Assembly (NCBI GenBank): GCA_013815325.1
Contig: JACDGM010000004.1
Location: forward strand, 1-64,000
Direction: 5' to 3'
Origin: Chthoniobacterales bacterium
GTDB taxonomy: Bacteria > Verrucomicrobiota > Verrucomicrobiia > Chthoniobacterales > UBA10450
Length of the DNA: 64,000 nucleotides
The notes beneath the pieces were generated by a model. That model saw only the letters and a program-made list of their open reading frames with translations, was not told where the DNA came from and searched no databases. Positions 1 to 31,589 of the stretch are shown in pieces; within the stretch, counting starts at the first letter, position 1; each line of letters opens with the position of its first letter. The position numbers and the translations under genes were made by a program.

Positions 1-1933
1 TCGCCGGCCTTACACTGTGATCGGCGTGATGCCGGCGCATTTCCAATTCCCGATCCAGACCGAAGCGGTCGACCTCTACACGACGATCGCGGAAGACGCG
101 TCGAACGCGGAGGGATTCAAGCCGGCGACGGAAGCGCGCGGGAGCCACAGCGTGGTGGGCATCGGGCGGCTCAAGTCCGGCGTCTCGATCGCGCAGGCGC
201 AGGCCGATCTCTCGACCATCGCCGCGCGGCTCGAGAAGCAATATCCCGACAGTAACACTTACTTCAGCGTGCTCCTGAAGCCGCTTCGCGAAGACATGGT
301 CGGCGATGTCCGGACGGCGCTTTATGTTTTGTTCGGCGCGGTCGTCTGCGTGCTCCTGATCGCGAACGCGAACGTCGCCAATCTGCTGCTCGCGCGCGCA
401 TCTGTCCGCGGGAGAGAGATCGCGCTCCGCGCCGCGCTCGGGGCCAGCCGCGCGCGCATCGTTAGGCAATTGCTCACCGAAAGTGTGCTCCTTTCCGCGC
501 TCGGCGGGTTGTTCGGCTTACTCCTGGCGGAATGGGGAACCGCGGCCCTGATTCGCGCCGTGCCGCAGAACATTCCGCGCATCGGCGATATCCAGCTCGA
601 TGCCTCCGTGCTCGGCTTTACGCTTCTCGTCTCGCTCGCCACCGGCATTATTTTCGGGCTCGTCCCGGCCTGGCAGGCCTCGCATGTCGATCTCAACAGC
701 TCGCTTAAAAGCGGCATGCGCATCGGCGGCGATGGCGGACACAAAGGACGGCTGCGCAACGGCCTCGTCATGGCGGAAGTGGCGCTTGCGCTCGTGCTCC
801 TGATCAGTGCCGGCCTGCTCATCCAGAGCTTCGCGCGGCTCGGTCAGGTGCAGACCGGATTGCGGCCCGACCGCCTCCTGACCGCGCGCATCAGCCTGCC
901 CGCTTCGGCTTATCCGAAGAACGAAAACGTCATCAGTTTCTTCGCGCAGTTTCTGCCGAAAGTTCGCGCGCTTCCCGGGGTGGAAGCGGCGAGCACGATC
1001 GTCCCGCTGCCCTTGAGCTCGAGCAACATGGTGACCGATTTCGACGACGCGGATCATCCGCTGCCGGAAGGTCAGCGCGCCACCGCACCGGCGCGCATCA
1101 TCGCGACCGATTATTTTAAAACCGTTGGCGTTCCGGTGCGACAGGGCCGGATTTTTGACGAGCACGACACCTTCACTTCGGCCCCGGTCGTGATCGTGAA
1201 CGAACTTTTTGCGAGCAAGTTTTTCGCTGGGCAAAACGCGGTCGGCAAACGCATCGCACCCGGATTCAGCGCCGGCGATGAGAAGCCGTTGATGCGCGAA
1301 ATCATCGGCGTGGTCGGGAACGTGAAACATCATTCGCTGCGCTACGACTACACCCCGGAGATGTATCTGCCGGTGACGCAGATTCCGTTCAACGAAACGT
1401 CGCTGGTCGTGCGCACGCGCGTCGTCAATGCCGCAAGTCTGACGTCGGCCGTACGCGCGCAACTAGCCGCGGTCGATCCAAACATTCCCATAACGAGTGT
1501 AAGAGTGTTCGAGGATTACATTTCGCGCTCGCTCGCCCGGCCGCGCTTCAACGCGCTCCTCCTTTCCATTTTCGCCGCGACTGCGCTCCTTCTCACCGCC
1601 ATCGGGATTTACGGCGTGATGGCTTACTCGGTCGCGCAGCGGACTAATGAGATCGGCATCCGCATCGCGCTCGGCGCGGCGCAGTCTTCCATCTTCCGGC
1701 TCATCGTCGGGCAGGCGATGGCGCTGGTCGCGATCAGTGTCGGGATCGGACTGGCCGGCGCCTTTGCTGCGACGCGTTTGTTGAACAGCCTGCTCTTCGG
1801 AGTGGGCGCGTGGGACCCGCTTACTTTTGGCGCCATCGTTTTTCTGGTAGCGGCAGTCGCCTTTCTCGCCGCCTGGCTGCCAGCGCGCCGAGCCGCGCGA
1901 GTGGACCCAATTGTTGCCCTGCGCACGGAATGA
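1..1933 (+). CDS. ADOP-family ABC transporter permease (MacB_PCD/FtsX), 5' end cut by window edge
   Basis: ORF open to the left edge (listed from 17); FtsX repeats, '[41 protein letters not shown]', C-terminal '[21 protein letters not shown]'. Confidence 0.9.
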   Translation, partial: RRPYTVIGVMPAHFQFPIQTEAVDLYTTIAEDASNAEGFKPATEARGSHSVVGIGRLKSGVSIAQAQADLSTIAARLEKQYPDSNTYFSVLLKPLREDMVGDVRTALYVLFGAVVCVLLIANANVANLLLARASVRGREIALRAALGASRARIVRQLLTESVLLSALGGLFGLLLAEWGTAALIRAVPQNIPRIGDIQLDASVLGFTLLVSLATGIIFGLVPAWQASHVDLNSSLKSGMRIGGDGGHKGRLRNGLVMAEVALALVLLISAGLLIQSFARLGQVQTGLRPDRLLTARISLPASAYPKNENVISFFAQFLPKVRALPGVEAASTIVPLPLSSSNMVTDFDDADHPLPEGQRATAPARIIATDYFKTVGVPVRQGRIFDEHDTFTSAPVVIVNELFASKFFAGQNAVGKRIAPGFSAGDEKPLMREIIGVVGNVKHHSLRYDYTPEMYLPVTQIPFNETSLVVRTRVVNAASLTSAVRAQLAAVDPNIPITSVRVFEDYISRSLARPRFNALLLSIFAATALLLTAIGIYGVMAYSVAQRTNEIGIRIALGAAQSSIFRLIVGQAMALVAISVGIGLAGAFAATRLLNSLLFGVGAWDPLTFGAIVFLVAAVAFLAAWLPARRAARVDPIVALRTE

Positions 1934-4544: not shown

Positions 4545-7019
4545 ATGTTAACCGACCTTAAATATGCCGTGCGCACGCTGTGGAAGGCGCCGGCCTTTAC
4601 TCTCATCGCCATCGCCACCCTCGCGCTCGGCATCGGCGCATCGACCGCGATCTTCAGCGTGCTCGATGCGGTGCTCTTACGCCCACTGCCGTATCCGAAT
4701 CAAGACCGGCTCGTGGAAGTGAACGAGCTGAACGAAGCGGGCCGTGCGATGCCCTTTACGGAGCCGAACTTAGACGATCTCGCCGCGCGCAATCGCAGCT
4801 TCGAAGCGGTGGCTTCATACGCGCGCAGTTCCGAAGCGGTCGCCGGTGGGAAGGAACCGGCGCGCACAGACGTTGCCGGTATTTCCGCTGATTTCTTTCG
4901 TGTCCTCGGCGTCAGGCCGGCGCTTGGCCGCTTGATTTCCGCGGAGACTTTGCGCGAGGGCAATGAGGTCGCGGTGGTCAGCTACGGTTTTTGGAAACGA
5001 ACGCTCGAAGGCCGGACAAATCTGGAAGGAACTTCGCTGCGCTTTACCAACCACGATTTCGCCGTCATCGGTGTGCTGCCGCCAGAAACGGAATTCCCCG
5101 CGGGGGTCGATGTTTGGTATCCGTTCCGGGCGATTTATCCGCCGTTCGAATCGCGCACCGGACATAATTTTCGTGCCATCGCCCGGTTGCGTCCCGCTGT
5201 TTCCTTTGCCCAGGCCGGCAACGAAGTCGCCGCGATTGGCCGTGCCTTGAAATCGCAATACGGAACGCAAACCGACGCTGCCAGTTTTGGTTTGCTCGCG
5301 TTCCGCGAACGTTTCGTGCGCGACATTCGCAGTGTCCTCTTTGTCTTGTGCGGCGCGGCCGGGGTGTTGCTCGCGATCGCCTGTTCGAACGTGGCGAATC
5401 TCTTGCTCGTGCGCGCCTCATCGCGGCGCAAAGAAGTGGCGTTGCGGGCCGCGCTGGGCGCTTCCCGGTGGAGATTGACGCGACAATTCCTCGTCGAAGC
5501 TTTGCTGCTCGCGCTGGCCGCTGGCGCCATCGGCACGCTCCTCTCTACGTGGAGCGTGCAGCTGATCGTCGGCTTGTATCACGGCGATCTGCCGCGCGTC
5601 GGCGAGATCGGCGTGAGCACGAGTGTTCTTCTATTCGCGCTCGCGATTTCAGTGCTGCTCGCGCTCGTGCTCGGGGTGGTGCCGGTGCTGCACGCCTCGC
5701 GGCGTCAATTGCAGAATGATCTGCAAGAGGCGGGCCGCGGCGGCTCGACGGGCGCGCGGCACACGCGTGTGCGCAATGTCCTGATCGTCGCGCAAGTCGC
5801 CTTGACCTTGATGCTGCTCGTGGGCGCGGGCTTGCTCGGGCGAAGTTTGCAGCGGCTGCTCGAGGTCGATCCCGGCTTTCGCGCTGACAGCGTGGTTGCG
5901 TTGACGACCTTGCTGCCGGACCCGCGCGCGGAAATTGCCAATCATGGAAATGCGGAGGGAGAGCTTCGCGCGCTGGCGCAGTTCAATCATCGATTGCTGG
6001 AACGGCTCCGATCATTGCCCGGAGTGACGAGTGCGGGCGGGACGAGCGCGTTGCCGATGAGCGGCAACGGCGCGAATGGCACCTTCATCGAAGAACACGG
6101 GGGCAAGCCGGCCGGGACAGAGCAGGAATTGGCGCGGCAATTCGATGCGCTTTCCCCGAGTGAACGCCTGCGCGACGCCGACTATCGCGCGGTCAGCGCG
6201 GGCTACTTCGAGGTCATGGACATTCCGCTGCTCCGCGGTCGATTGTTCGAGGAACGTGACGGGCCGGATGCGCCGCAGGTGGCCCTCGTTAGTCAAGCGC
6301 TGGCCAAACGCTACTGGCCTAACGAGAACGCGATCGGCAAACAAATCCAATTCGGCAACATGGACAGCGATCTGCGTTTGCTGACGGTGGTCGGTATCGT
6401 GGGCGACGTGCGCGACAACGGTCTGGATCGCGAACCGCGACCGACGATTTATTTGAATTACCTGCAACGTCCGGCGACGACCTCGGAATTTTCCTTCGTC
6501 GTCCGCGGGCAGAGCGATGTCTTCAGCCTAACGAGTGCAATGCGGCGCGAAGCTCGCGCCTTGAATCCGCAAATGCCGATCAAGATTGAAACCGTGCGGC
6601 AGATTGTGGCCGCGTCCTTCGATAACCGCCGCTTCAGCATGATCATGCTTGGCGTATTCGCGGGCGCGGCGCTGGCCCTCGCGATGGTCGGGCTTTACGG
6701 AATCATGTCCTACATCACGTCGCAGCGAACGACCGAGATCGGTATTCGCATGGCGCTCGGCGCGCAGCGTTCCGACATGCTGCGAATGATTCTCCGGCAA
6801 AGTCTGTTCCTGGCCGGCGCAGGTATGACAGCTGGAATTCTTTTGTCGTTAGGCGCGACGCGTCTGCTCGGCAGTTTTCTTTTCGGAGTGGGGGCGACTG
6901 ATTTCTTCACCTACGCGATCGTCCTTTGCTTGTTAGGCGGGGCGGTCTTGCTTGCGAGTTTTGTTCCGGCGCGACGCGCCATGCAGGTCGATCCGATGGT
7001 CGCGCTTCGTTATGAGTAA
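4545..7019 (+). CDS. ADOP-family permease (824 aa)
   Basis: '[50 protein letters not shown]', FtsX domains, '[17 protein letters not shown]'. Confidence 0.93.
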   Translation: MLTDLKYAVRTLWKAPAFTLIAIATLALGIGASTAIFSVLDAVLLRPLPYPNQDRLVEVNELNEAGRAMPFTEPNLDDLAARNRSFEAVASYARSSEAVAGGKEPARTDVAGISADFFRVLGVRPALGRLISAETLREGNEVAVVSYGFWKRTLEGRTNLEGTSLRFTNHDFAVIGVLPPETEFPAGVDVWYPFRAIYPPFESRTGHNFRAIARLRPAVSFAQAGNEVAAIGRALKSQYGTQTDAASFGLLAFRERFVRDIRSVLFVLCGAAGVLLAIACSNVANLLLVRASSRRKEVALRAALGASRWRLTRQFLVEALLLALAAGAIGTLLSTWSVQLIVGLYHGDLPRVGEIGVSTSVLLFALAISVLLALVLGVVPVLHASRRQLQNDLQEAGRGGSTGARHTRVRNVLIVAQVALTLMLLVGAGLLGRSLQRLLEVDPGFRADSVVALTTLLPDPRAEIANHGNAEGELRALAQFNHRLLERLRSLPGVTSAGGTSALPMSGNGANGTFIEEHGGKPAGTEQELARQFDALSPSERLRDADYRAVSAGYFEVMDIPLLRGRLFEERDGPDAPQVALVSQALAKRYWPNENAIGKQIQFGNMDSDLRLLTVVGIVGDVRDNGLDREPRPTIYLNYLQRPATTSEFSFVVRGQSDVFSLTSAMRREARALNPQMPIKIETVRQIVAASFDNRRFSMIMLGVFAGAALALAMVGLYGIMSYITSQRTTEIGIRMALGAQRSDMLRMILRQSLFLAGAGMTAGILLSLGATRLLGSFLFGVGATDFFTYAIVLCLLGGAVLLASFVPARRAMQVDPMVALRYE

Positions 7020-7128
7020 CATAGCCATCCTGGCTGTCGGTCGCGCGGGCATCTTGCCGGCGCATTTCAACCAGGCTGCGGGCTGGAAGCCCGCGCTACT
7101 TATCAGGCTGGAAGCCTGAATTACGGCC
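7020..7128. repeat. Intergenic palindromic repeat, family A copy 1
   Basis: agccatcctggctgtcggtcgcgcgggc...caggctggaagcctga; close match to 15473-15577. Confidence 0.8.
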
Positions 7129-8043
7129 ATGCTCCCTGACCTCCGCTTCGCACCACCCCGACTGGGCAAGGCACCCGGCTTCACTTTTATCGCCCTCCTC
7201 ACGCTCACGGTAGCTCTCTCGACGAGTGGAGCGCCGGCGCCTCTCGGCGTCTTTCCTTTTAAACGCGATGGCCAGCTCATGCTGGTGGAAGTCAGCATCA
7301 ATAAGTCCACGCCCGCCCTCTTTTTCGTTGATTCGGGCGCATCCCACACCGTCTTCGATCCGAAATTTGCGAAGGAGCTCGGGTTGAAAATCGAGAGCGC
7401 TCCTCCCACCACTGGAACCGGAACGGGCGACGTGCCCAAGTCTCACTCCGAGCCGGTCGTGATGACATTAAACGGCTTGAAGGTTGATCTGCCCGAGCCT
7501 TGGGTGATCGATCTCAGTAAGGCGTCGTTACCCGCCGCCGTGAGAGGACTCGTCGGAGCGGAGATCTTCAAGACCTACGTGGTCAGAATGGATCCGGTGC
7601 AGTCGACCTTCACCCTCTTCGATGCCGCATCCTATCGTCACGAAGGCGACGCTCCGGCCATTCCTCTCCACGTCGAAGGCGACAAGCTTTTCCTCGAAGC
7701 AGCTCTGGAGGTTCCGGCCGGCCAAACCGTCACGCACAAGCTTCGGATCGACACCGGCTCGGAATCATCCGTTAACGACGAGATCGTGCAGCGCTCAGCC
7801 GAAGTCCGCAGCAGCAATCTGGGCGGCGGATTGGGAGAAAACTTCAAGTCGTACTCAGGCGTTTTCTCTTCCGTCAAAATCGGTCCTTATATCGTTAGGC
7901 ACGTCTGGGGGCCAGGCGGGCCGCGTCCGGCCATCGGCATGGAGCTTTTGCGGCGGTTCATCATCACCTTCGATGCGCCCCACGGGCGGATGTATCTCGA
8001 GCCAACACCAGCCTTGGCTGAACCGGTCCCGACACCGCCTTAA
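7129..8043 (+). CDS. Chimeric ORF: decayed ADOP N-terminus fused to retropepsin-like aspartyl protease domain
   Basis: 'MLPDLRFAPPRLGKAPGFTFIALLTLTVAL' matches ADOP heads; then 'LFFVDSGASHTVFD' and 'LRIDTGSESSVND' (two D-S/T-G motifs). Confidence 0.75.
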   Translation: MLPDLRFAPPRLGKAPGFTFIALLTLTVALSTSGAPAPLGVFPFKRDGQLMLVEVSINKSTPALFFVDSGASHTVFDPKFAKELGLKIESAPPTTGTGTGDVPKSHSEPVVMTLNGLKVDLPEPWVIDLSKASLPAAVRGLVGAEIFKTYVVRMDPVQSTFTLFDAASYRHEGDAPAIPLHVEGDKLFLEAALEVPAGQTVTHKLRIDTGSESSVNDEIVQRSAEVRSSNLGGGLGENFKSYSGVFSSVKIGPYIVRHVWGPGGPRPAIGMELLRRFIITFDAPHGRMYLEPTPALAEPVPTPP

Positions 8044-8055
8044 CCTAACGAGTAT

Positions 8056-10470
8056 ATGAATGATCTCCGCTTCGCTCTACGCCAGCTTCGCAAATCGCCC
8101 GGCTTTACTTTCATCGCCGTACTTACCCTCACGCTCGGGATTGGGGCGAACACCGCCATCTTCACCGTCGTATACGCGGTCTTGCTCTCGCCCCTTCCCT
8201 ATGCGGATGCCGACCGCATCATGACGGTGCAATCGCGTAATCTGCAAGAGGACCTGAAGGGGCAGGGATTTGCTCCGGCGGGCTTTCGCGATGTCGAAAA
8301 ACAAGTCACCTCTTTCGAGAGTATCGCGGCCAGTCGTTACAACTATGATAACCTGACGCGCGTCGAGAAACCGACTTCACTCACCGGCAGTCTGGTCACC
8401 CAAGATTACTTCCGGGTGCTGGGCGAGAAGGCACTCATTGGCCGCACTTTCATGCGAGAAGACGCAGCGGCCAATGCCAAGCCGACGGTCATCCTCGGTT
8501 ACGATCTGTGGCAAAAGCAATTTGGCGGCCGGCGCGAACTCGTCGGCGAAACCATCACGCTCGACGACGTGCCGCATGAGGTCATAGGAGTCATGCCGCG
8601 CACTTTCAAAGATCCGTTCAACATCGCATCGGAGTGGCGGGTTCTTCCGAACGAAGGTGGCGAAAACTTCGTCGCGAACTCGCGTTTTTGGGGCGTGATC
8701 GGACGGGTGAAGCCCGGCCTGCCCGTCGCCACGGTCCAGGCGGAGCTCAACACGATCGCCGCCCGGCTCGCACAGAACGACCCGAAATTCTACAAAAGCT
8801 GGGACTTCACTTTGTCTCCGCTGCACGATGAAGTCGTCGGCAACTATCGCGAAGGTTTGCTCCTTGTCGTCGGCGCCGCGCTCCTCGTGCTCCTCATCAC
8901 TTGCGCGAACGTGGCTGGCCTTCAATTCGTGCGCGCTTCCACCAGGCAGCGCGAAGTGGCGATTCGTCTCGCGCTCGGCGCGAGCCGTGCGGCGGTCGCG
9001 CGCGGGCATTTGATTGAGTCGCTCGTGCTCGTCGCGCTTGGCGGCGCGGGTGGTGTCCTGATCGGCAGCTGGGGTTTGGACTTGCTCCTGGCGGGTCTGG
9101 CGCGCGATTGGATTCCGCGCAGTGACGAGATCACATTGAACACGCCGGTGCTTTTGGTCACCGGCGCGATCGCGTTGTTGACCGGGCTCGCTTTCGGTCT
9201 TTACCCGGCCTGGTACGCGACCAGGGTCGACGCAATCGATTCGTTGCGCGATGGCGGCAAGGGCGGCTCCGCTGGTCTGCAATCGGTGCGGGTGCGCGGC
9301 GCGCTTGTCGTCGCTCAGATCGCTCTCACGCTCGTGCTCCTTGTCTGCGCCGGCCTCGTTTGGAAAAGTTTTGCCGCGATCACACGAGTGAATCCCGGCA
9401 TCCAGATCGAGAACACGCTCAGCATGGTGATCACGCTCGCGCCCACTCAGTACGATACCGGCCCCAAACGGATCGACTATTATCATCAGCTCCTCGAGCG
9501 GATGAGCACGATACCGGGAGTGGAATCGGCCGCGTTCACGCAGACGATGCCGTTCACTTGGGGGATTCCCGCCACCTTCTCGATCTACGGTGCGTCCGAT
9601 GAGGCGGTGAAATTGCCGCCGGCCTTTTACGATTCGGTCAGTCCCTCATTCTTTTCCACGCTGCACATTCCGCTGCTGGCCGGGCGCACTTTCGCCGAAA
9701 TTGATGATGTCAAAGCGCCGCAGGTGGCGGTGCTGAGCCAATCGGCAGCGAAGAAATTCTTCCCCCGAGAAAAAAATCCGCTCGGCAAGCGTCTCGTACT
9801 TCCGCCCAGTACCCGGCAACCGAACCCGCAACCGCTCGAAGTAATCGGCGTGGTCGGCGATGTGCCGCGCGAAGGCCTCAATGCCGCCACTCCTTATCAG
9901 GTTTACGCTTCCTTGAACCGGCGCGGCTGGCCTTTCGCCACTCTGCTCGTGCGCTCCCCGCTTCCGGTGGACGCGATTACGCAGACGGTGCAACGCGCGA
10001 TTTGGGCCTTCAATCCCGAGCAGACGATTTCAAACGTCGAGCCGGTGCGAACCTTGGTGAAACAAAGTCTCACCCAACCGCAACTCTACCTCACGCTCTT
10101 CAGCCTTTTCGCCCTGCTCGCACTGCTGCTCGCCGGCATCGGTCTCTACGGCCTGATTGCTTACAGTGTCGCGCAGCGCACGCGCGAGTTTGGCATTCGT
10201 TACGCACTCGGCGCGCAAGTCCGCGACGTCCTGCGCCTCGTGCTCGGCCAAGGGATCAGGCTGACCGCGCTCGGTCTTGTCCTTGGTTTGTTAGGCGCGG
10301 CCGCGGTCGCGCGTCTCATGCAAACTCTTCTCTTCCACACCACCGCCTACGATCCATTGGTTTTCGGCGGGGTCGTCTTCGTGCTCGGCAGCATCGGCCT
10401 CCTGGCCGCGTTGTTGCCTGCATTGCGTGCTACGAAGGCAGACCCAGTCGCAGCCTTACGCACTGAATGA
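8056..10470 (+). CDS. ADOP-family permease (804 aa)
   Basis: '[49 protein letters not shown]'; C-term '[17 protein letters not shown]'. Confidence 0.93.
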
Positions 10471-15577: not shown

Positions 15578-16170
15578 ATGACTGACTTCCGTTACGCTTT
15601 CCGCCAGTTCGCGAAATCACCCAGTTTCACACTGACCGCGCTGGCCACGGTCGCGATCTGCCTCGGAGCGAATCTCGCGATCTTCGCGGTGATCGATTCC
15701 ATTCTGCTCCGGCTGCTGCCTTTTCCGAGGGCCGAGCAGTTGGTGACGATCTTCAAAAACACCTATCCGAAAGCCGGAGTCGAGAATGACGGTTCGTCGC
15801 TGACCAATTACTACGAGCGGCGCGGCCACCTCCCGGCTTTCTCGAGCCTTTCCATCTTTCGCTACGACAGCGAAGTCGTCGGCGACGCGGTGCGACGCAA
15901 CAGGAAGAGCTCATGCGCGTCTCGCCGGATTTTTTCGCGACGCTTGGCGTCAGCCCGGTGATGGGTCGCAGCTTCAACGAGATGGAAACGATGACGGTTG
16001 AAAACAACGGAGTGGCCATCTTGACCGACGCCTACTGGCGCCAGCGCCTCCCTTCCGATCCAAACGTCCTCGGCCGGGAAATCCGCTTGAACGGAGTGCC
16101 AAGAAAAATCGTCGCAACGGTGGAGGCGAATCCGGAAGACTACCCCGCCGAGAAGGCCACCCATTCATGA
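15578..16170 (+). pseudogene. Truncated, frameshifted ADOP permease
   Basis: ADOP N-term 15578-15961 continues in another frame ('GATQQEELMRVSPDFFATLGVSPVMGRSF'), ending at the start of the next ADOP at 16167. Confidence 0.85.
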
Positions 16171-21716: not shown

Positions 21717-24140
21717 ATGACCGACCTTCGCTTCGCCTTTCGCCAACTTCTGAAGTCTCCCGGCTTCACCTTCATCGCCGTCCTCACCCTCGCTCTCGGC
21801 ATCGGCGCGAACACCGCGATTTTCACCATCGTCCACGCCGTCTTTCTCGAGCCGCTGCCGTATCGCGACGCGAATCGCATTGTCGCCATCTGGGAGACGA
21901 ACGCACAAACCCCGGGGCGTTCCAATGTCGTCGCGCCGGCGAATTTCCTTCGCTGGCAGGAACGTGTGACCTCGTTCGACGCGTTGGCGGCGTTCGCGGA
22001 AACGCGAGTAAACCTTTCCGGCACGGAGAACCCCGAGGAGGTCGTCGCCCAAAATGTGACTGCGCCCTTCTTCTCGGTGCTCGGCATTGGGCCGATGTTA
22101 GGACGCACCTTCACCGCGGAGGAAAGTGCGGACCCGAACTCGTCCGCTGTGATCTTGAGTGAGGAATTATGGCAGCGCCGGTTCGGATCGGACCCGGGAA
22201 TCATCGGCCGCGCGATTCAGTTAAACAGCAAACCGCAGACGGTTGTCGGGGTGATGCCGGCTGGCGTCCGTCTGTTTCTAAAAACCGGCTCATTGGTAGG
22301 CAAGCCGGCCGATCTCTGGCGTACGCTACCGATAGGAGCTGCCGAGCGCGAGCCGCGCGGCCGCGTCCTTTCTGTCATCGGACGTTTGAAGCCGGGTGTG
22401 CGCGTCGAAGCCGCGCGCGCCGAGATGAAGGCGATCTCCGCGAGCCTTGCTTCGGAGTTGCCCGCATTCGATACCGGCTGGACAACGAAGGTCATCCCGC
22501 TGCGCGAAGAGTTAGCGCACGACGTTAGGCGCCCGCTGTTCGTTTTATCCGCCGCGGTCGCCTTCGTCCTCCTGATCGCTTGCGCGAATGTCGCCAATCT
22601 CCTCCTCGCTCGCGGCGCCGCGCGGCAGCATGAGCTCGCCATCCGCATTGCGCTCGGCGCCACACGCGGGCAGATCATCCGGCAACTCCTTCTGGAAAGT
22701 GTGGTTCTCGCAATCATCGGCGGCTTCGCCAGTCTCCTGATTGCGCAATGGGGCGTGGAGTTTCTCCAGGCGCTCAGCCCGGTCGATCTGATCGCGTCTG
22801 GTCCGTTGAAGTTGAGTTATCCCGTGCTGGCCTTTACCGCGACGATTTCAATTCTTACCGCACTCGGCTGCGGCCTCGCCTCGGCTTTGGAAGGCTCGCG
22901 AGGGAATGCCCAGCAATCACTCGTCGAAGGCGGGCGGCAGATCGGTGCTGGCTTGAGGCATCGCCATTTGCGCCACTCTTTTGTCGTCGCCGAGATCGCG
23001 CTCGCGATGGTCCTGCTCGTCGGCGCCGGGTTGATGTTGCGCAGTTTCGCCACGATGCGCCGGGTCGATCCGGGATTCGATGCGAGCAATGTCCTAACGA
23101 TGCGGATGCAATTGCCGCGGGCGAAGTACGCGGATGATGCCGCGCGGATCCATTTCTTTCGCGATTTGACTGCGCGCGTCGCTGCTTTGCCCGGGGTCGA
23201 GAGCGTCGGCGCGGTGAGCTACTTGCCGATGGCCGGACTTGGCGCCGCGACCAGCTTCACGATCGAAGGGCAACCGCCGCCACCACCGGGACAGGACAAG
23301 GACACGGTCGTCACCGTCTGCGATAACGGTTTCTTCCAGGCCCTGAAAATCCCGCTTGTCCGCGGCCGTCTCTTTGCCGCGCGCGAGACGCAGGAGAAGT
23401 CGAACGTCGTCATCATCAACGAAACGTTCGCGCGTCAAAATTTTCCGAAAGGCGATGCGCTCGGCCAACGAGTGACGATTGATATGGCCGACCCGAATGT
23501 GCCGACCGAAATCATCGGGATCGTGGGCGACACAAAATCTGTCGATCTGGTGACGGCCGCGCGCCCGGCGGCCTACTGGCCTCCTCCGCAACTGGCCTAC
23601 GGCGCGATGACCTTGACCGTGCGCACGAAGGTCGATCCGCTTTCCTTGCGCAGCGCAGTCGAAGCGCAGGTGCGCGCGCTCGACAAAGATCAGCCGGTCT
23701 CGGACGTGCGCACGATGGAGCAATGGGTAGAAAAATCGCTCGAACAGGCGCGTTTCAGCTCCCGTCTCCTCGCGCTCTTCGCGGGCCTGGCTCTCGTGCT
23801 GGCCGCGGTCGGCATCTACGGCGTGATGTCATTCGCGGTCAACCAGCGCACCTCGGAGATCGGCGTCCGCCTCGCCCTTGGCGCTGAGGAGCGCGACATC
23901 CTGCGCATGATCGTCGGCGACGGCATGCGCCTAACGGGGATCGGCCTTGGGATTGGCGTTCTCGTCGCGCTCGCCTTGAGCCGCAGCCTAACGAGTCTGC
24001 TTTTCGCGGTTGGCGCTTCCGATCCGGCGACTTTTGTAGTGATCGCGGGACTCATCGCCGCCGTCGCTTTGTTTGCTTCCTGGCTGCCGGCGCGTCGCGC
24101 GTCGCGTGTCAATCCAGTCCAGGCGCTCCGTGCCGCATGA
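21717..24140 (+). CDS. ADOP-family permease (807 aa)
   Basis: '[49 protein letters not shown]'; '[20 protein letters not shown]'. Confidence 0.93.
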
Positions 24141-24148
24141 CCACCAAT

Positions 24149-24207
24149 CAGCCCGTAACGCAGCCCCGCATGTGCGGGGCGAGGCCGGGCTTTCCATCAC
24201 CAATCAG
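24149..24207. repeat. Intergenic repeat, family C copy 1
   Basis: cccgtaacgcagcc(ccgcatgtgcg)gggcgaggccgggctttccatca; matches 31668-31715. Confidence 0.65.
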
Positions 24208-24222
24208 AAATCAGCAATTCTT

Positions 24223-26640
24223 ATGACCGACCTTCGCTTCGCCCTGCGCCAGCTCCGCAAATCCCCCGGCTTCACCGCCCTCACCGTCCTGACCCTTGCC
24301 CTCGGCATCGGCCTTAACACCGCGATATTTTCCCTGATCAACGATTTGTTTTTACGCGGCCTGCCTTTCAGCGAGCCGCAGCGATTGCTTCACGTCCAGG
24401 CGAAATCCGGCGACGACGAGCGACCGATTCCGATCGGTGCGCCGCGTTTTCTGCAGCTGCGCGAGGCGAAGGCGGTCTTTTCCGGGTTCGCCGGCGAGAA
24501 CGGCACGGGCGCGACCATGACGGGTCTCGGCGATGCGGTCACGCTTCCAGTCTTTCGAGTGACGGCGAATTATTTCGATGTCCTCGGCGTGCGTCCAATT
24601 CGCGGCCGCAATTTTTTGCCGCAGGAAGAAGAGGGCGCGGATGTCGCCATCGTTTCGGAAAGTTTTTGGAAGAAGCGCCTCGGCGGTGATCCCGAAGTTC
24701 TGGGCCGGGCAGTCACTCTCGACGGCGTGCCGCACACGATCGTGGGCGTGATTCCGAACATGCCGGTGAAATGGGTCGGGCCGAACGGCAACGAGATTTG
24801 GACGACGAAACCGTTTGTCATTCCCGGATTTTCCTATGAGCGCATGATGCGCGGCACCGGTTTTCTGCGCGCGGTTGGCCGTTTGAAACCGGGTGTATCG
24901 TTAGGCCAGGCGCGCGCCGGGCTGGCGACGCTCGAGCAAAATTACCGCAGTCAATTTGCGGATAAAATCGACGCGAAGTACGCGCTCGTCAGCATGACGC
25001 TGCCGGAAGATGTGACGGAAGAAATTCGGCCCGCCTTCGCCACGCTTCTGGCCGCGGTCGCGTTCGTTTTACTGATCGCGTGCAGCAACGTCGCCAACCT
25101 GCTTCTTGTTCGATTCAGCGGACGCCGGCGCGAAATTTCGCTCCGCATGGCGCTGGGCGCATCGCGCGCCAGCGTGGTGCGCTTGTTCGTTTACGAGAGC
25201 GTGCTCATCAGCGTGCTCGCAGGAATTCTCGGCGCGCTCCTCGCCGCGGAGCTGGTCCCGCTCGTGCCGAAACTAGCGGCGGATTTTCTGCCCCTTGAAG
25301 GCAACCGAGCGAGCGGAATGTCCTGGGCAGTGCTGGGATTCACCATCGCCTTGTCGCTGCTCACCGGTTTGCTCATGGGCGTTTATCCGGCGCTGCAAAG
25401 TTCGCGCACGGATTTGGTCGACGGCTTGAAGGAAGGCGGGCGCGGGTCGAGCGGGAGCGTGCGGCAACAACGTTTCCGCCGCGTGCTCGTCGCCGCGCAA
25501 GTCGCGCTCTCCGTCACGCTCCTCGCCGGTGCCGCACTCTTGATCGCGAGTTTCGTGCGCTTGAGTCATCAGGAAACAGGCTTTCGCGCGGAGCGCACCT
25601 GGGTCGGCTTTGTGAATTATCCCAGCTCTTCCTACCCGGACATCGCCGCGCGTCATCGCTTCGCAGAGCAGATCATCGACAAATTACGAAACACGCCCGG
25701 TCTCGAAAGCGCGGCGGCGAGCGGCGATTTCCCTTTGATCGGCGGCAATAACTTAACCCTTTACGCGCGTGGCGATCGCGAGTTGCCGCCGGTGCCGCAA
25801 CGCGCGGCCGCGCCCTCACACGATGTCGCGCCCGGCTACCTGCGCTTCTGGGGCATTCCAATTTTGAGCGGCCGTGATTTCGATCAGCGCGATCTCGACG
25901 GCCGCGCCAACGTTGTTCTGATCAGCAAATCCGGCGCGCGCAAACTTTACGGCGCGGAAAATCCGATCGGCAAAATCCTCGCGGTCACGAGCGGCGGCGT
26001 GCCTTGCGAAATTATCGGCATCGTCGGCGACGTGCGCGGCGACCGGCTCAATCTCGTGCACGACATGGAATTTTATCGTCCGTGGGGTCAGGAAAATTTC
26101 CCCTTCATGACGATCGCGGTGCGCAGTTCGCAATCGCTCGAAGCCATCACCAGGCTGGTGCAATCCGCGATTAACACGCTCGACTCGACGATGGCGATCG
26201 CGCAGCCGCAAATGATGGACACGGTGATGCGACAGGCCTTGGGCCAGGCGCGTTTGATGATGTGGCTGCTCGGCATTTTCGCCGGCGTCGCGCTCCTGCT
26301 CGCGACCGTGGGAATTTACGGCGCGGTGGCTTACACCGTCGAGCAACGCACGGGCGAGATCGGGGTGCGCATGGCGCTGGGCGCGCAGACGGCGGACGTA
26401 TTGCGGCTGGTCGTTAGGCAAGGAATGGGGCCGGTCGTGATCGGGCTGGTCGCCGGACTTGGTGCGGCGGTCGCACTCGGCACTCTGCTCGCTTCGCAGC
26501 TGTATGAAGTCTCGGCGCACAATCCCCTGCTCCTCACCGCCACAGCTTTTACCCCCGCGTTCGCCGCGCTCCTCGCCTGCCTGATTCCGGCGCGACGCGC
26601 CACCTTGGTGAACCCGATCGAAGCGCTCCGCACAGAATGA
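24223..26640 (+). CDS. ADOP-family permease; start at [11 protein letters not shown]
   Basis: ADOP N-term, FtsX domains, '[20 protein letters not shown]'. Confidence 0.92.
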
Positions 26641-26647
26641 AAATCTC

Positions 26648-29029
26648 ATGAACAATTTACGTTTCGCATTTCGCCGGTTGCGCAATTCACCAGGCTTCAC
26701 TCTCGTCGCGGTGCTCACACTCGCGCTCGGAATTGGCGCGAACACGGCCATCTTTAGCGTCGTCAACGGCGTCTTGCTCCGTCCGTTGCCCTACCCAGAT
26801 CCGGAGCGGTTGGTCACACTGAAATCGAACCAGTCTTCGCTGGAACTGGCGGACATCGCCGCGCAAAACAAGAGCTTCGAGAGTATCGGCGGGGTCGGCG
26901 TTCAAGCCGCGGATTATGCAGGTGGAGTTGAGCCGATCCAGCTCGAGGTCGGTCTGGTCGCGGGCGATTTCTTTCGCGTGCTCGGCACCCGGGCCGCGCT
27001 CGGCCGCACCCTCACCGCGGAGGATGATCGCTTCGGCGGTCCGCACGATGTGGTGCTAAGCCATGAAATTTGGCAGCGCCAATTTGCGGGCGACCCGGGA
27101 GTGCTCAGTCGCAACATCACGCTCGCGGGCCAGAGCTATACCGTCATCGGGGTGCTGCCGGCGGAATTCCGTTCGCCGCGCGGAACCCTCGACGCCTTTG
27201 CTTCGGTCCATGTCTTTTATCCGCTCGCTGCTAAGGCGCGTGGCGCGCATCTGCTCCGGGTGTACGCCAAATTGCGTTCCGGCCTAACGATCGCGGCAGC
27301 GCAGACCGAAATGCGCGTGATCGATCAACGCCTCGCGCTCGCGAATCCGGACGAAAACAAAGATCGACAGAGCACGCTCCTTTCTCTCCACGAACGAATG
27401 GTCGGAGATATTCGCCCCGCGCTTCTCGTCCTCTTCGGCGCGGTCGGTCTGGTGCTGCTGATCGCGTGCGCGAACTTCGCCAACCTGCTCCTCGCGCGCA
27501 CCGCCACGCGCCGCCAGGAGCTGACCGTGCGCGCTGCGCTCGGCGCGGGACGCGGAAGCTTGATCGGCCAGGTGCTGATCGAAAGCATATTACTTGCGCT
27601 GCTCGGCGGAGCCGCCGGTTTATTGTTAGGCAGTTGGGGAGTCGACGCGCTCCTCGCCTTGCGCCCCGAGGATCTTTCGCAGGTCGAGAATGTGCACCTC
27701 GATGGATGGGTGCTCGCCTTCACCTTCCTGCTCGCGCTTGTGACCGGCGTCGTCTTTGGCGTGCTGCCGGCGTGGGAAGCGACGCGGGTGGAAATCAACA
27801 ACGTCCTCAGCTCGAGCAGTCGCAGCGTGACGGCGACGCGTTCAACTTTCCGCAGTTTCCTTGTCATCGCGGAACTCGCTCTTGCGCTCGTGTTGCTCAT
27901 CGGCGCGGGTTTGCTCGGGAAGACTTTTTGGCGCCTAACGAGTGTCGCACCTGGTTTCAATGTCGATCACATCCTAACGATGCGCGTCGAGCTGCCGGAG
28001 GCGCGCTATCGAGCGGTTGAACCGCAGACTCGATTCCGCGAGCAAGTGCTCGAAAATCTGAATGCACTGCCCGGCGTGCAGGCGGCGATGATCAGTGAGA
28101 TGCCGCTTGGCGGGAACGCGATTAATCACAATTTCATCATCGAAGGCCGGCCGCCGCTCACTCCCGGCGAAGAGCCCGAGCTCTTTAACCGCAGCATCGC
28201 GGGCGACTACTTCAAGGTTCTCGGAATTCCGCTTTTACAGGGCCGCGCTCTGACGCGCGACGACCGCGCCGGCGTCCCAGCCGTGGGCGTGATCAACGAA
28301 GCAATGGCGAGAAAGTATTTCCCGAGCGCCAGTCCGCTCGGCGCGCGCATTCGTTGGGCGCGCGACGAAGGCGTGGATTGGATCACGATCGTCGGTGTCG
28401 TCGGCAACGTGCGGCACTTCAGCCTCGCGGCGGCGGAAGAGCCGACGATCTACACGTCCTACGCGCAATCGGGCCAGGAATGGAAACGCTGGAGCGAGAT
28501 CGTGGTGAAAACCGCTGGCACACCCGCGCCGGCCTTCATCGCGCAATGCAAAGCGATGGTCTGGAAAGTCGATCCACTCATCCCGGTGACAAACATCCGG
28601 CCAATGTCCGAAGTCATGGCCGTCTCGCTCGCCGAACAACGTTTCAACACTCTGTTGCTCGCCATTTTCGCGGCCGTGGCGCTCCTCCTCGCCGGCGTCG
28701 GTCTCTATGGCGCGCTTGCCTTTTTGGTCACGCAGCGGACGCGTGAAATCGGCATCCGCGTCGCGCTCGGCGCGCAGGCGCGTGACGTCATGCGGCTCGT
28801 GCTGCGCCAGGGAATGACGTTGTCGCTCGCGGGGATTGTAGCGGGCGTGTGCGTGGCGCTCATCGCCACACGCGTTCTCGCGGGATTGCTTTACGGCGTT
28901 TCGCCGACAGATCCCCTAGCATTCGCCGCGCTCGCAATTTTGCTCCTTCTCGTCGCTCTCGCGGCCTGCGTCGTTCCGGCGCGGCGCGCCATCAAAGTCG
29001 ATCCGATCGTCGCGTTGCGAACCGAATAA
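26648..29029 (+). CDS. ADOP-family permease (793 aa)
   Basis: '[49 protein letters not shown]'; '[20 protein letters not shown]'. Confidence 0.93.
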
Positions 29030-29045
29030 CCAAAACCCAAAACAT

Positions 29046-31589
29046 ATGATCCACGATTTGAGATTCGCCTTCCGGCAACTTTGGAAATCACCCGGCTTTA
29101 CCTTTGCTGCCGTCACCGTGCTCGCGCTCGGGATCGGCGTGAACACCGCCATTTTCACGCTCGTGAACCAGATGTTATTCCAGCCGCCGGCCTACGAGCG
29201 GCCTAACGAGATCGTGCAGCTCTTTTCCCAGGACAAAAAGGATCCGAAAAGCTTTCGTACTTTCTCCTATCCGACCTACCGAGATGTGCGGGAACAGAAC
29301 ACCGTCTTCTCCGGCCTCCTGGCGCACGACAGAACTCTCGTAGGGCTCGGCGAAAAGGGAATCAACCGCCGCGTCCTCGCGGACATCGTAAGCTCCAACT
29401 ATTTTGCGGTCCTCGGCGTGAGGCCCGCCTTCGGACGCACGTTTCTCCCGGAAGAGGAGAAGGCGGGTCGCGACGAGCGGGTCGCGATCGTGAGCTACAG
29501 CTATTGGCAGAAGCATGGGCGCGATCCGTCGCTCCTCGGTGGCAGTCTCTTAATCAACGGTCGCGCCTTCACCGTCGTCGGGATCATGCCGGAGGGATTC
29601 ACCGGGACGCAGAGCATCCCTTCGCCGTCCGCCTGGCTCCCGCTCGGCGTTTATGACGAAATCATGAACGATCTCGGCGGTGGGTCTAACGAGTCACTGG
29701 CTGCGCGCGGGAACGACCGACTCTTGCTCATCGGCCGGCTCAAACCCGGAGTGACAGCCGCGGCCGCAGCGCCCGCGCTCAAGGGTCTCGCCGCGAATCT
29801 GGAAAAGGCGTTTCCGGTCGAACAAAAAGATCAGACGTTGATGACGGCGCCGCTCGACCGCTTCTCCACCAGCAGTGATCCTTTGGAGCCCGGGCCAGAG
29901 AAGACCATCGGAGTCCTGCTCTCGGCGATGGCGGCCGTGGTCCTGCTCGTGGCCTGTCTGAACCTGGCAAACATGCTCCTCGCGCGCGGGACCGCGCGGC
30001 GCAAAGAGATCGCGACCCGTCTCGCGCTCGGAGCGAGCCGCTTTCGACTCGTTAGGCAACTCCTCACCGAGGGCTTCGTCCTCGCGCTCCTCGGTGGCCT
30101 CGGCGGACTCCTTCTCGGACTCTGGTCCTCCGATTTGCTCATCGCCTCCCTCGGCAAAATCCTGCCGTACGATATCGTCTGGCTGAGCGGGCCGAACCCG
30201 GCGATTCTCGGGGCGACGCTGCTTTTCTGCATTCTCGGCACGCTCTGTTTCGCCCTCGGGCCGGCGCTCAAACTCTCCCGCGTGGCTGTCCTTGGAGATT
30301 TGAAAGAACAAGCCGGCGAGGATGTCGTTAGGCCGGGTTGGAAATTTCTCCCGCGCAATCCGCTCGTCGTCGTGCAAATCGCTTTCTCCCTCGCGCTCGT
30401 GACCGCAGCGGCGCTTTTCATTCGCGGCGCCGGGAAAGCGGCGGCGGTCGAATCGGGACTGCAGGCCGACCAAACCTTCCTCATGGAAGTGGATGCGGGC
30501 CTGGGCGGTTTCGAGCAAAAGCGGGCACAGGTACTTTACCGCACACTGGAGGAGAAATTGGCCTCGCTTCCGGGCGTCGAACACGCGGGCGTTTCGGCGA
30601 CGGTGCCATTAGGGGATCGCTTCGTGATGAGGACGGTGCAGCGCGCCGGCGTCGCGCCCGATCCGAATGCCGAAGCCATCAGTCCGTTCTGGAACAGCGT
30701 CGGGGCGGATTATTTCGCCGCGGCCGGTTTGCCGCTGCGGCGCGGTCGCGCCTTCACGCAGACGGAGGCGACGGAACCCCGCGGACCGGCGGTCGCGATC
30801 ATCGACGAAGTGCTCGCGAAGAAGTTGTGGCCTAACGAGGACGCGCTCGGACAAAGCATCCAGTTCCCGATCCGCACCGACGCGCCCCCGGAAAAAATCG
30901 ACGCCGGGAGCGGCGAGATCCGGCGCGGCCAGTCGATCGAGATCGTCGGCATCGTCGGGGCGGTAAAGACCCGGCTGCTCGGCGAGCAGGCGCCCGGAAC
31001 GCTTTACCTGCCCTTCGCGCGCGGATTCCAGAGCGATGTTTTCTTTTTCGTGCGGTTCGCCTCATTGCCGGCGAGGAACGAGCCCGCCGCCGCCGAGCTG
31101 CTGCGGCGGACCTTGCGAGGTGTCGATCCGGTGCTGCCCATTCTCGAGCTGAGGACTTTCGCGAAGCACACGGATGCCAATCCGCACCTTTGGATTGTGC
31201 GGGCAGGAGCGGCGTTGTTCTCGATCTTCGGCGCGCTCGCGCTCGGCTTGGCGGTGATCGGGATTTACGGTGTGAAAGCGTATTCGGTCGCGCGCCGCAC
31301 GCGCGAGATCGGTATCCGCATGGCCCTCGGCGCGCAGCGCGGGACCGTGCTCTGGATGATTTTGCGTGAAGGCCTAACGATGATTGTGGTCGGGCTCATC
31401 CTGGGATTTCTCCTCGCCATCGCGACCGGCAAAATCGTCAGCAGCATTTTGTTCCAAGTGAGTCCGCTCGACCCGTTCGCGTTCACCCTCGCGCCCGCAG
31501 TTTTGGCGCTGGCCGCTTTGCTCGCGACCTGGCTGCCCGCGCGCCGCGCCACCCGCATCAGCCCGATGGCCGCCCTTCGTCATGAGTAA
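29046..31589 (+). CDS. ADOP-family permease (847 aa)
   Basis: '[43 protein letters not shown]'; 'TWLPARRATRISPMAALRHE'. Confidence 0.92.
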   Translation: MIHDLRFAFRQLWKSPGFTFAAVTVLALGIGVNTAIFTLVNQMLFQPPAYERPNEIVQLFSQDKKDPKSFRTFSYPTYRDVREQNTVFSGLLAHDRTLVGLGEKGINRRVLADIVSSNYFAVLGVRPAFGRTFLPEEEKAGRDERVAIVSYSYWQKHGRDPSLLGGSLLINGRAFTVVGIMPEGFTGTQSIPSPSAWLPLGVYDEIMNDLGGGSNESLAARGNDRLLLIGRLKPGVTAAAAAPALKGLAANLEKAFPVEQKDQTLMTAPLDRFSTSSDPLEPGPEKTIGVLLSAMAAVVLLVACLNLANMLLARGTARRKEIATRLALGASRFRLVRQLLTEGFVLALLGGLGGLLLGLWSSDLLIASLGKILPYDIVWLSGPNPAILGATLLFCILGTLCFALGPALKLSRVAVLGDLKEQAGEDVVRPGWKFLPRNPLVVVQIAFSLALVTAAALFIRGAGKAAAVESGLQADQTFLMEVDAGLGGFEQKRAQVLYRTLEEKLASLPGVEHAGVSATVPLGDRFVMRTVQRAGVAPDPNAEAISPFWNSVGADYFAAAGLPLRRGRAFTQTEATEPRGPAVAIIDEVLAKKLWPNEDALGQSIQFPIRTDAPPEKIDAGSGEIRRGQSIEIVGIVGAVKTRLLGEQAPGTLYLPFARGFQSDVFFFVRFASLPARNEPAAAELLRRTLRGVDPVLPILELRTFAKHTDANPHLWIVRAGAALFSIFGALALGLAVIGIYGVKAYSVARRTREIGIRMALGAQRGTVLWMILREGLTMIVVGLILGFLLAIATGKIVSSILFQVSPLDPFAFTLAPAVLALAALLATWLPARRATRISPMAALRHE

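Follow-up and report, generated by a model that had tools for sequence, protein, structure and literature searches.

RloA of Pseudomonas is a retropepsin-like peptidase of the secreted type that carries a signal peptide, and it forms a homodimer in which the DTG motif lies where the subunits meet (PMC12239564). APRc of Rickettsia is a further secreted bacterial retropepsin-like peptidase (PMC4140852). The locus described here lies in a stretch of 64,000 nucleotides from a Chthoniobacterales bacterium (contig JACDGM010000004.1 of GCA_013815325.1; the whole analysed stretch is referred to as the window) and encodes a predicted retropepsin-like protease within a tandem array of ADOP family permease genes (TIGR03434). 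Our reading, to which we assign a probability of roughly three in four, is that this is an exported aspartyl protease whose original signal start was replaced by the head of an ADOP permease, probably through deletion of the permease body.

The protease gene occupies exactly positions 7129-8043 of the forward strand and encodes 304 amino acids in an intact frame with an ATG start. Residues 53-143 match PF13650 (E=5.6e-13, 49.9 bits against a gathering cut-off of 24.3), and the ORF also matches PF13975 above the Pfam gathering score (E=2.9e-8). The pattern of D-[ST]-G followed by hydrophobic-hydrophobic-Gly (hhG) occurs twice. The first lobe (7285-7557, + strand), to which the PF13650 match belongs, carries DSGAS at 7330-7344 and GLVG at 7546-7557, and its motif is kept in five compared sequences. 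The second, divergent and retropepsin-like lobe (7654-8010, + strand) carries DTG at 7750-7758, within an Asp motif that reads DTGSE, and AIG at 7930-7938; the Asp, the Gly and the IG are invariant across five compared sequences. Pfam recognizes the first lobe only, and the second by itself has no Pfam match. A comparison of the lobes with hhalign gave a weak match (E=0.0065, probability 5.8%), and AlphaFold2, for which the input alignment held two sequences only, returned a pLDDT of 30, so the fold assignment of the second lobe follows from its motifs only. We read the ORF from these matches and motifs as an intact two-lobed retropepsin-like aspartyl protease that is predicted to be active. 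This agrees with the two-motif retropepsin-like domain proposed in the first-pass annotation, as the DSG, the DTG and both hhG motifs are present and kept in relatives.

On the sequence evidence, the first ~28 codons of the gene come from the 5' end of an ADOP permease gene (TIGR03434). This head (7129-7215, + strand, MLPDLRFAPPRLGKAPGFTFIALLTLTVA) supplies the start codon, the n-region and most of the hydrophobic h-region. A profile was built from 35 independent ADOP heads of the window and related genomes, with the fusions left out; residues 3-32 match it at 37.4 bits, and by this score the N-terminus belongs with the conserved ADOP head (M-x-D-L-R-F-A-x-R-x-L-x-K-S-P-G-F). When the residues were shuffled with the compositions of n-region and h-region kept, the best score was 22.7 bits, and none of 5,000 shuffles attained that of the fusion. 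Aligned in register, the head shares 73% of its DNA positions with the ADOP head at 8056 and 53-71% with others. The ADOP heads of the same array have a median identity of 64% to each other, and the maximum for random in-frame coding DNA is 47% (3,542 positions). Mean DNA identity to all ADOP heads is 0.651, compared with a maximum of 0.488 among 438 non-ADOP signal-like N-termini. These results bear out the suggestion in the first-pass annotation that the N-terminal ~30 residues are ADOP-derived.

The similarity to ADOP DNA ends abruptly, dropping to ~25% past codon ~28. A blastn alignment of the two protease copies found in this genome starts at 7219, and the DNA from about this position onwards aligns with the paralogue; the junction and the c-region typical of the protease family span 7210-7248 (+ strand, TVALSTSGAPAPL). 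A search of the fusion against NCBIfam (TIGR03434) gave no match, and it contains no MacB_PCD or FtsX domain, only the head. Compared with ADOP, the head is degraded, with two new prolines and lost arginines, while its hydrophobic core is retained. As far as can be judged from composition, the N-terminus fits the layout of a Sec signal: a positively charged n-region of 18 amino acids (net charge +2), a hydrophobic h-region (12-residue Kyte-Doolittle mean of 2.35) and a polar c-region with STSGAPAP. The cleavage site, as read from the sequence, appears imperfect: AxA-like sites near GAPA would give proline at +1, so VALS or TVA would have to serve as putative cleavage sites. The ADOP head is the sole plausible start for a secreted product of this gene.

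The gene is flanked by an upstream ADOP permease gene (4545-7019, + strand; TIGR03434, 853 bits, cut-off 622) and a downstream one (8056-10470, + strand; 857 bits, cut-off 622) that starts 12 nt past the protease stop codon. The protease body lies between the two units of an imperfect direct repeat, namely the head at 7129-7215 and that of the ADOP at 8056. Between the upstream ADOP and the start of the fusion lies a short palindrome-like repeat (7078-7099, + strand, GCGGGCTGGAAGCCCGC...), the exact 17-base core of which is present just twice in the genome. A decayed ADOP of the same array (15578-16144, + strand), identified by tblastn against the array ADOPs, has its N-terminal ~184 codons in broken frames and has lost its body; the next ADOP begins at 16167.

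The source genome is a draft of 209 contigs, with a contig break upstream, inside the array. At this break, an ADOP gene (1-1933, + strand) has its 5' part on contig C43 and ties the window to an upstream protease paralogue. The last 215 bases of C43 (L042, G000:C43, 14901-15115) match window positions 1-215 at 99.5%, and this overlap with the window contig (C11) places both protease copies in one array, three ADOPs apart. The joined array comprises ~18 ADOP genes, two proteases, a MacB-like ATPase and a DUF4097 gene. At L042 7334-8344, a DUF4097/LiaG-like protein of the secreted type is encoded within the ADOP array. A 45% identical DUF4097 homologue directly precedes the protease in another Chthoniobacterales bin (L008, 2100-3095), and the presence of this gene beside the protease there and in the same array here hints at a shared envelope function, as a lead only. 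The ADOP arrays of genome G018 (L043, G018:C297) and of window positions 21717-31589 have related members (58-61%), and the protease lies at different places in them, so its position relative to the array has shifted.

The paralogue on C43, located three ADOP genes upstream on the abutting contig, is 79% identical to the window copy and can start at MNDLRFALR, nine ADOP residues that begin 6 nt past the stop codon of the upstream ADOP. This short head scores 12.5 bits against the ADOP head profile (0/5000 shuffles). It is followed in frame by ~20 unrelated residues and then by another ATG, from which a plausible signal peptide would be read. The hydrophobic stretches of the two copies are alike (p=0.002), so there may have been one ancestral head that was later disrupted in C43, or two separate events. 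Insertion of a repeat element into the C43 head was considered and rejected, given that the 13-base motif concerned occurs at no more than chance level in the window. Duplication of a whole segment of protease and downstream ADOP was likewise rejected, given that the ADOP bodies behind the two copies are not closest relatives; paralogous ADOP pairs are C43_8410/W1959 (60%) and C43_10948/W10481 (59%).

The protease was detected at E<=1e-25 in just 5 of the 213 genomes searched in the order. The relative in G018 (64-68% identity) starts with MIAPTQRYLLVLAAMIVSTA, an ordinary-looking signal peptide that scores -1.2 bits against the ADOP head profile and has no ADOP similarity. We found no similarity between this signal peptide and the head of the fusion; the N-terminus, for which the first-pass annotation had named ordinary signal peptides of the protease family as the competing match, aligns with ADOP and not with the G018 signal. 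The ATG of the G018 protease overlaps the stop codon of an ADOP whose C-terminus is nearest to C43_10948, and 44 of 65 C-terminal residues are identical between this ADOP and the one upstream of the C43 paralogue. The adjacency of ADOP and protease is therefore common to G018 and C43, and the window copy has neighbours that differ from those in both. Because the G018 relative has its own signal peptide, the window copy represents a signal swap rather than a first acquisition of secretion. The earlier proposal of a captured secretion signal is therefore imprecise and has to be amended from capture to replacement.

The L008 protease starts with MKALCFALHPLRRS and probably carries a diverged ADOP head, judging from a mean DNA identity to ADOP heads of 0.528 (background maximum 0.488); its result in the profile test was weak (129/5000 shuffles). 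A deletion that joined the head of the ADOP on the DUF4097 side to this protease was rejected as its source, as the L008 head is unlike that ADOP. The exact ADOP/protease junction of the window, sought as the first-pass annotation had proposed, occurs in no second genome among the related genomes compared. The dN/dS check proposed with it gave 0.13 between the window and C43 copies and 0.06 for the second lobe. The dN to G018 is equal for both copies (0.217 and 0.219), so the fused copy has not been relaxed relative to the other; purifying selection acts on both.

A further case surfaced unexpectedly among the signal-like N-termini used as negative controls. In G020, a genome of another genus, a protease with the start MNDLPFAPRLLMKVPA scores 14.4 bits against the ADOP head profile. 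The gene (L029:832-2712, - strand; L074, G020:C9, 10525-12402, reverse complement) encodes 627 amino acids of another aspartyl protease subfamily with a PDZ-like tail, and sits between two ADOPs with its ATG right behind the stop codon of the upstream one. The first 16 codons are ADOP-like, and homology to the orthologue in G095 resumes at codon 17; the mean DNA identity of the head to ADOP heads is 0.571, against a background maximum of 0.465 (5,698 positions). The orthologues in G095, G090 and G083, which are 69-87% identical over the best segments and lie at a dS of ~0.29, have ordinary signal peptides (MRKSVRLFLCG... in two) and are located beside genes that we take, from the appearance of their sequences, to be tilS- and gltX-like. 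No second copy of this protease was found in G020. Location in an array and an ADOP start are found in G020 and in none of the orthologues, so relocation and change of head coincide. As in the window, an aspartyl protease inside an ADOP array has an ADOP-like start; unlike the window fusion, it belongs to a different subfamily (part of the protease region aligns at ~25% identity) and has only 16 ADOP codons with its own h-region kept, whereas the window head supplies most of the hydrophobic segment. By these sequence comparisons, the swap of a signal for an ADOP start in G020 is independent of the window case.

In a survey of 15 genomes with a head profile that contained the fusions, the scores of which are therefore in-sample, the only ADOP-headed proteins other than ADOPs were those of the window and G020. 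This is a minimum count, as the survey profile would miss a head as short as that of C43. All short ADOP-headed frames chosen for inspection were frameshifts, truncations, contig edges or heads remaining after body deletion. Some of these remnants arose by in-frame internal deletion that joined head to tail. At G016:C7:19419, residues 1-49 of the head are joined in frame to the last 28 residues, and at G010:C18:172177 residues 1-102 are joined to the C-terminal 43; other head remnants are at G001:C16:8951, G006:C57:86792 and G016:C1:751153. Remnants that keep the head and have mostly lost the body are seen at window positions 15578-16144, at L079 305-553, L077 678-1116 and L083 352-674 and in L080, L060 and L084. 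Such head remnants of ADOPs with a deleted body are frequent in these genomes and suggest a mechanism.

In an ADOP, these codons make up an n-region with positive charge and begin transmembrane helix 1. The most likely course is that an ADOP adjoining the protease lost its body, which would have left the head in frame with the protease and joined the ADOP helix, cut after ~13 hydrophobic residues, to the protease-family c-region STSGAPAP. The chimeric head may now act as a Sec-type signal peptide and provide the start codon. More generally, a duplicated permease may decay in place while its head persists, and a neighbour or newcomer would then be read from that head. The deletion route, the export and cleavage of the product and its proteolytic activity are what we infer from these comparisons.

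The ADOP head, at ~80 bases, is too short to tell which ADOP was the donor, or to tell a deletion remnant from a copied head. A less probable reading is that recombination or gene conversion copied the head from an adjacent ADOP, for example the one at 8056, or that the protease was inserted behind an ADOP start. In both copies of this genome the protease body lies between ADOP heads that form imperfect direct repeats, the nearest head in the window is the one directly downstream, and the G020 gene, relocated into an array and beginning with ADOP codons, suits insertion behind an ADOP start. However, the 73% identity to the downstream head barely exceeds that to other heads (up to 71%), which argues against recent conversion from a present member of the array, and the frequency of heads that outlast their ADOP bodies makes a further process unnecessary. 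The more specific idea of a recent copy of the downstream ADOP was dropped on the same comparison.

We consider it unlikely that the fused protease is a non-functional recombination scar, a pseudogene in the making. The genome has two copies, one of which could be dispensable, and the head is degraded; but its hydrophobic core is retained, the frame is intact with both catalytic motifs, and neither the dN/dS nor the distance to G018, the same as that of the other copy, fits decay. The mere recombination scar that the first-pass annotation had allowed for is thus hard to reconcile with an intact and constrained gene. An assembly or binning artefact that joined the head to the protease is very improbable: tandem arrays are hard to assemble and the contig of this draft breaks inside the array, but the junction lies within a single contig, the C43 copy starts with a different ADOP remnant of its own, and the G020 case is independent. 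Least credible is an ordinary signal peptide that became ADOP-like by convergence: signal peptides and N-terminal transmembrane helices are alike in composition, and the DNA of signal-like N-termini, in the best register, is on average 0.378 identical to that of ADOP heads, but no region-preserving shuffle and none of the 438 signal-like N-termini reaches the values of the fusion head, which has no similarity to the G018 signal peptide.

Gene fusions in general are well known, and the origin and exchange of bacterial signal peptides have mostly been discussed in terms of sequence drift. In the present cases the donor family can be named and the junctions can be seen in the DNA, and the comparison of G020 with G095, G090 and G083 gives states before and after the change at a dS of ~0.3. 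The first-pass annotation concerned one gene; the fusion stands, and the phenomenon is wider, with nine ADOP residues in C43, a probable case in L008 and the independent swap in G020. As ADOP genes duplicate and decay in place, leaving heads that consist of a start and a helix, genes that land in an array would be re-headed. We put it at an even chance that ADOP arrays act as recurrent donors of start codons and export signals, having done so at least two times, in different genera and protease subfamilies. A small literature search, which makes for a weak negative, turned up no paper in which permease heads repeatedly supply export signals. The cases suggest that large permease families, as they decay, hold a stock of N-terminal targeting segments ready for use, a proposal that is testable among array-resident genes.

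Compared with the ADOP family of duplicated, MacB-like permeases (TIGR03434), the fusion shares the first ~28 codons, with the start codon and the beginning of transmembrane helix 1, whereas full-length ADOPs have ~800 amino acids with MacB_PCD and FtsX, and the fusion is without both. With RloA and APRc it has in common the D-[ST]-G-A active-site motif in a retropepsin-like domain. Unlike RloA, it combines two DxG/hhG sets in one chain, and its predicted signal is ADOP-derived.
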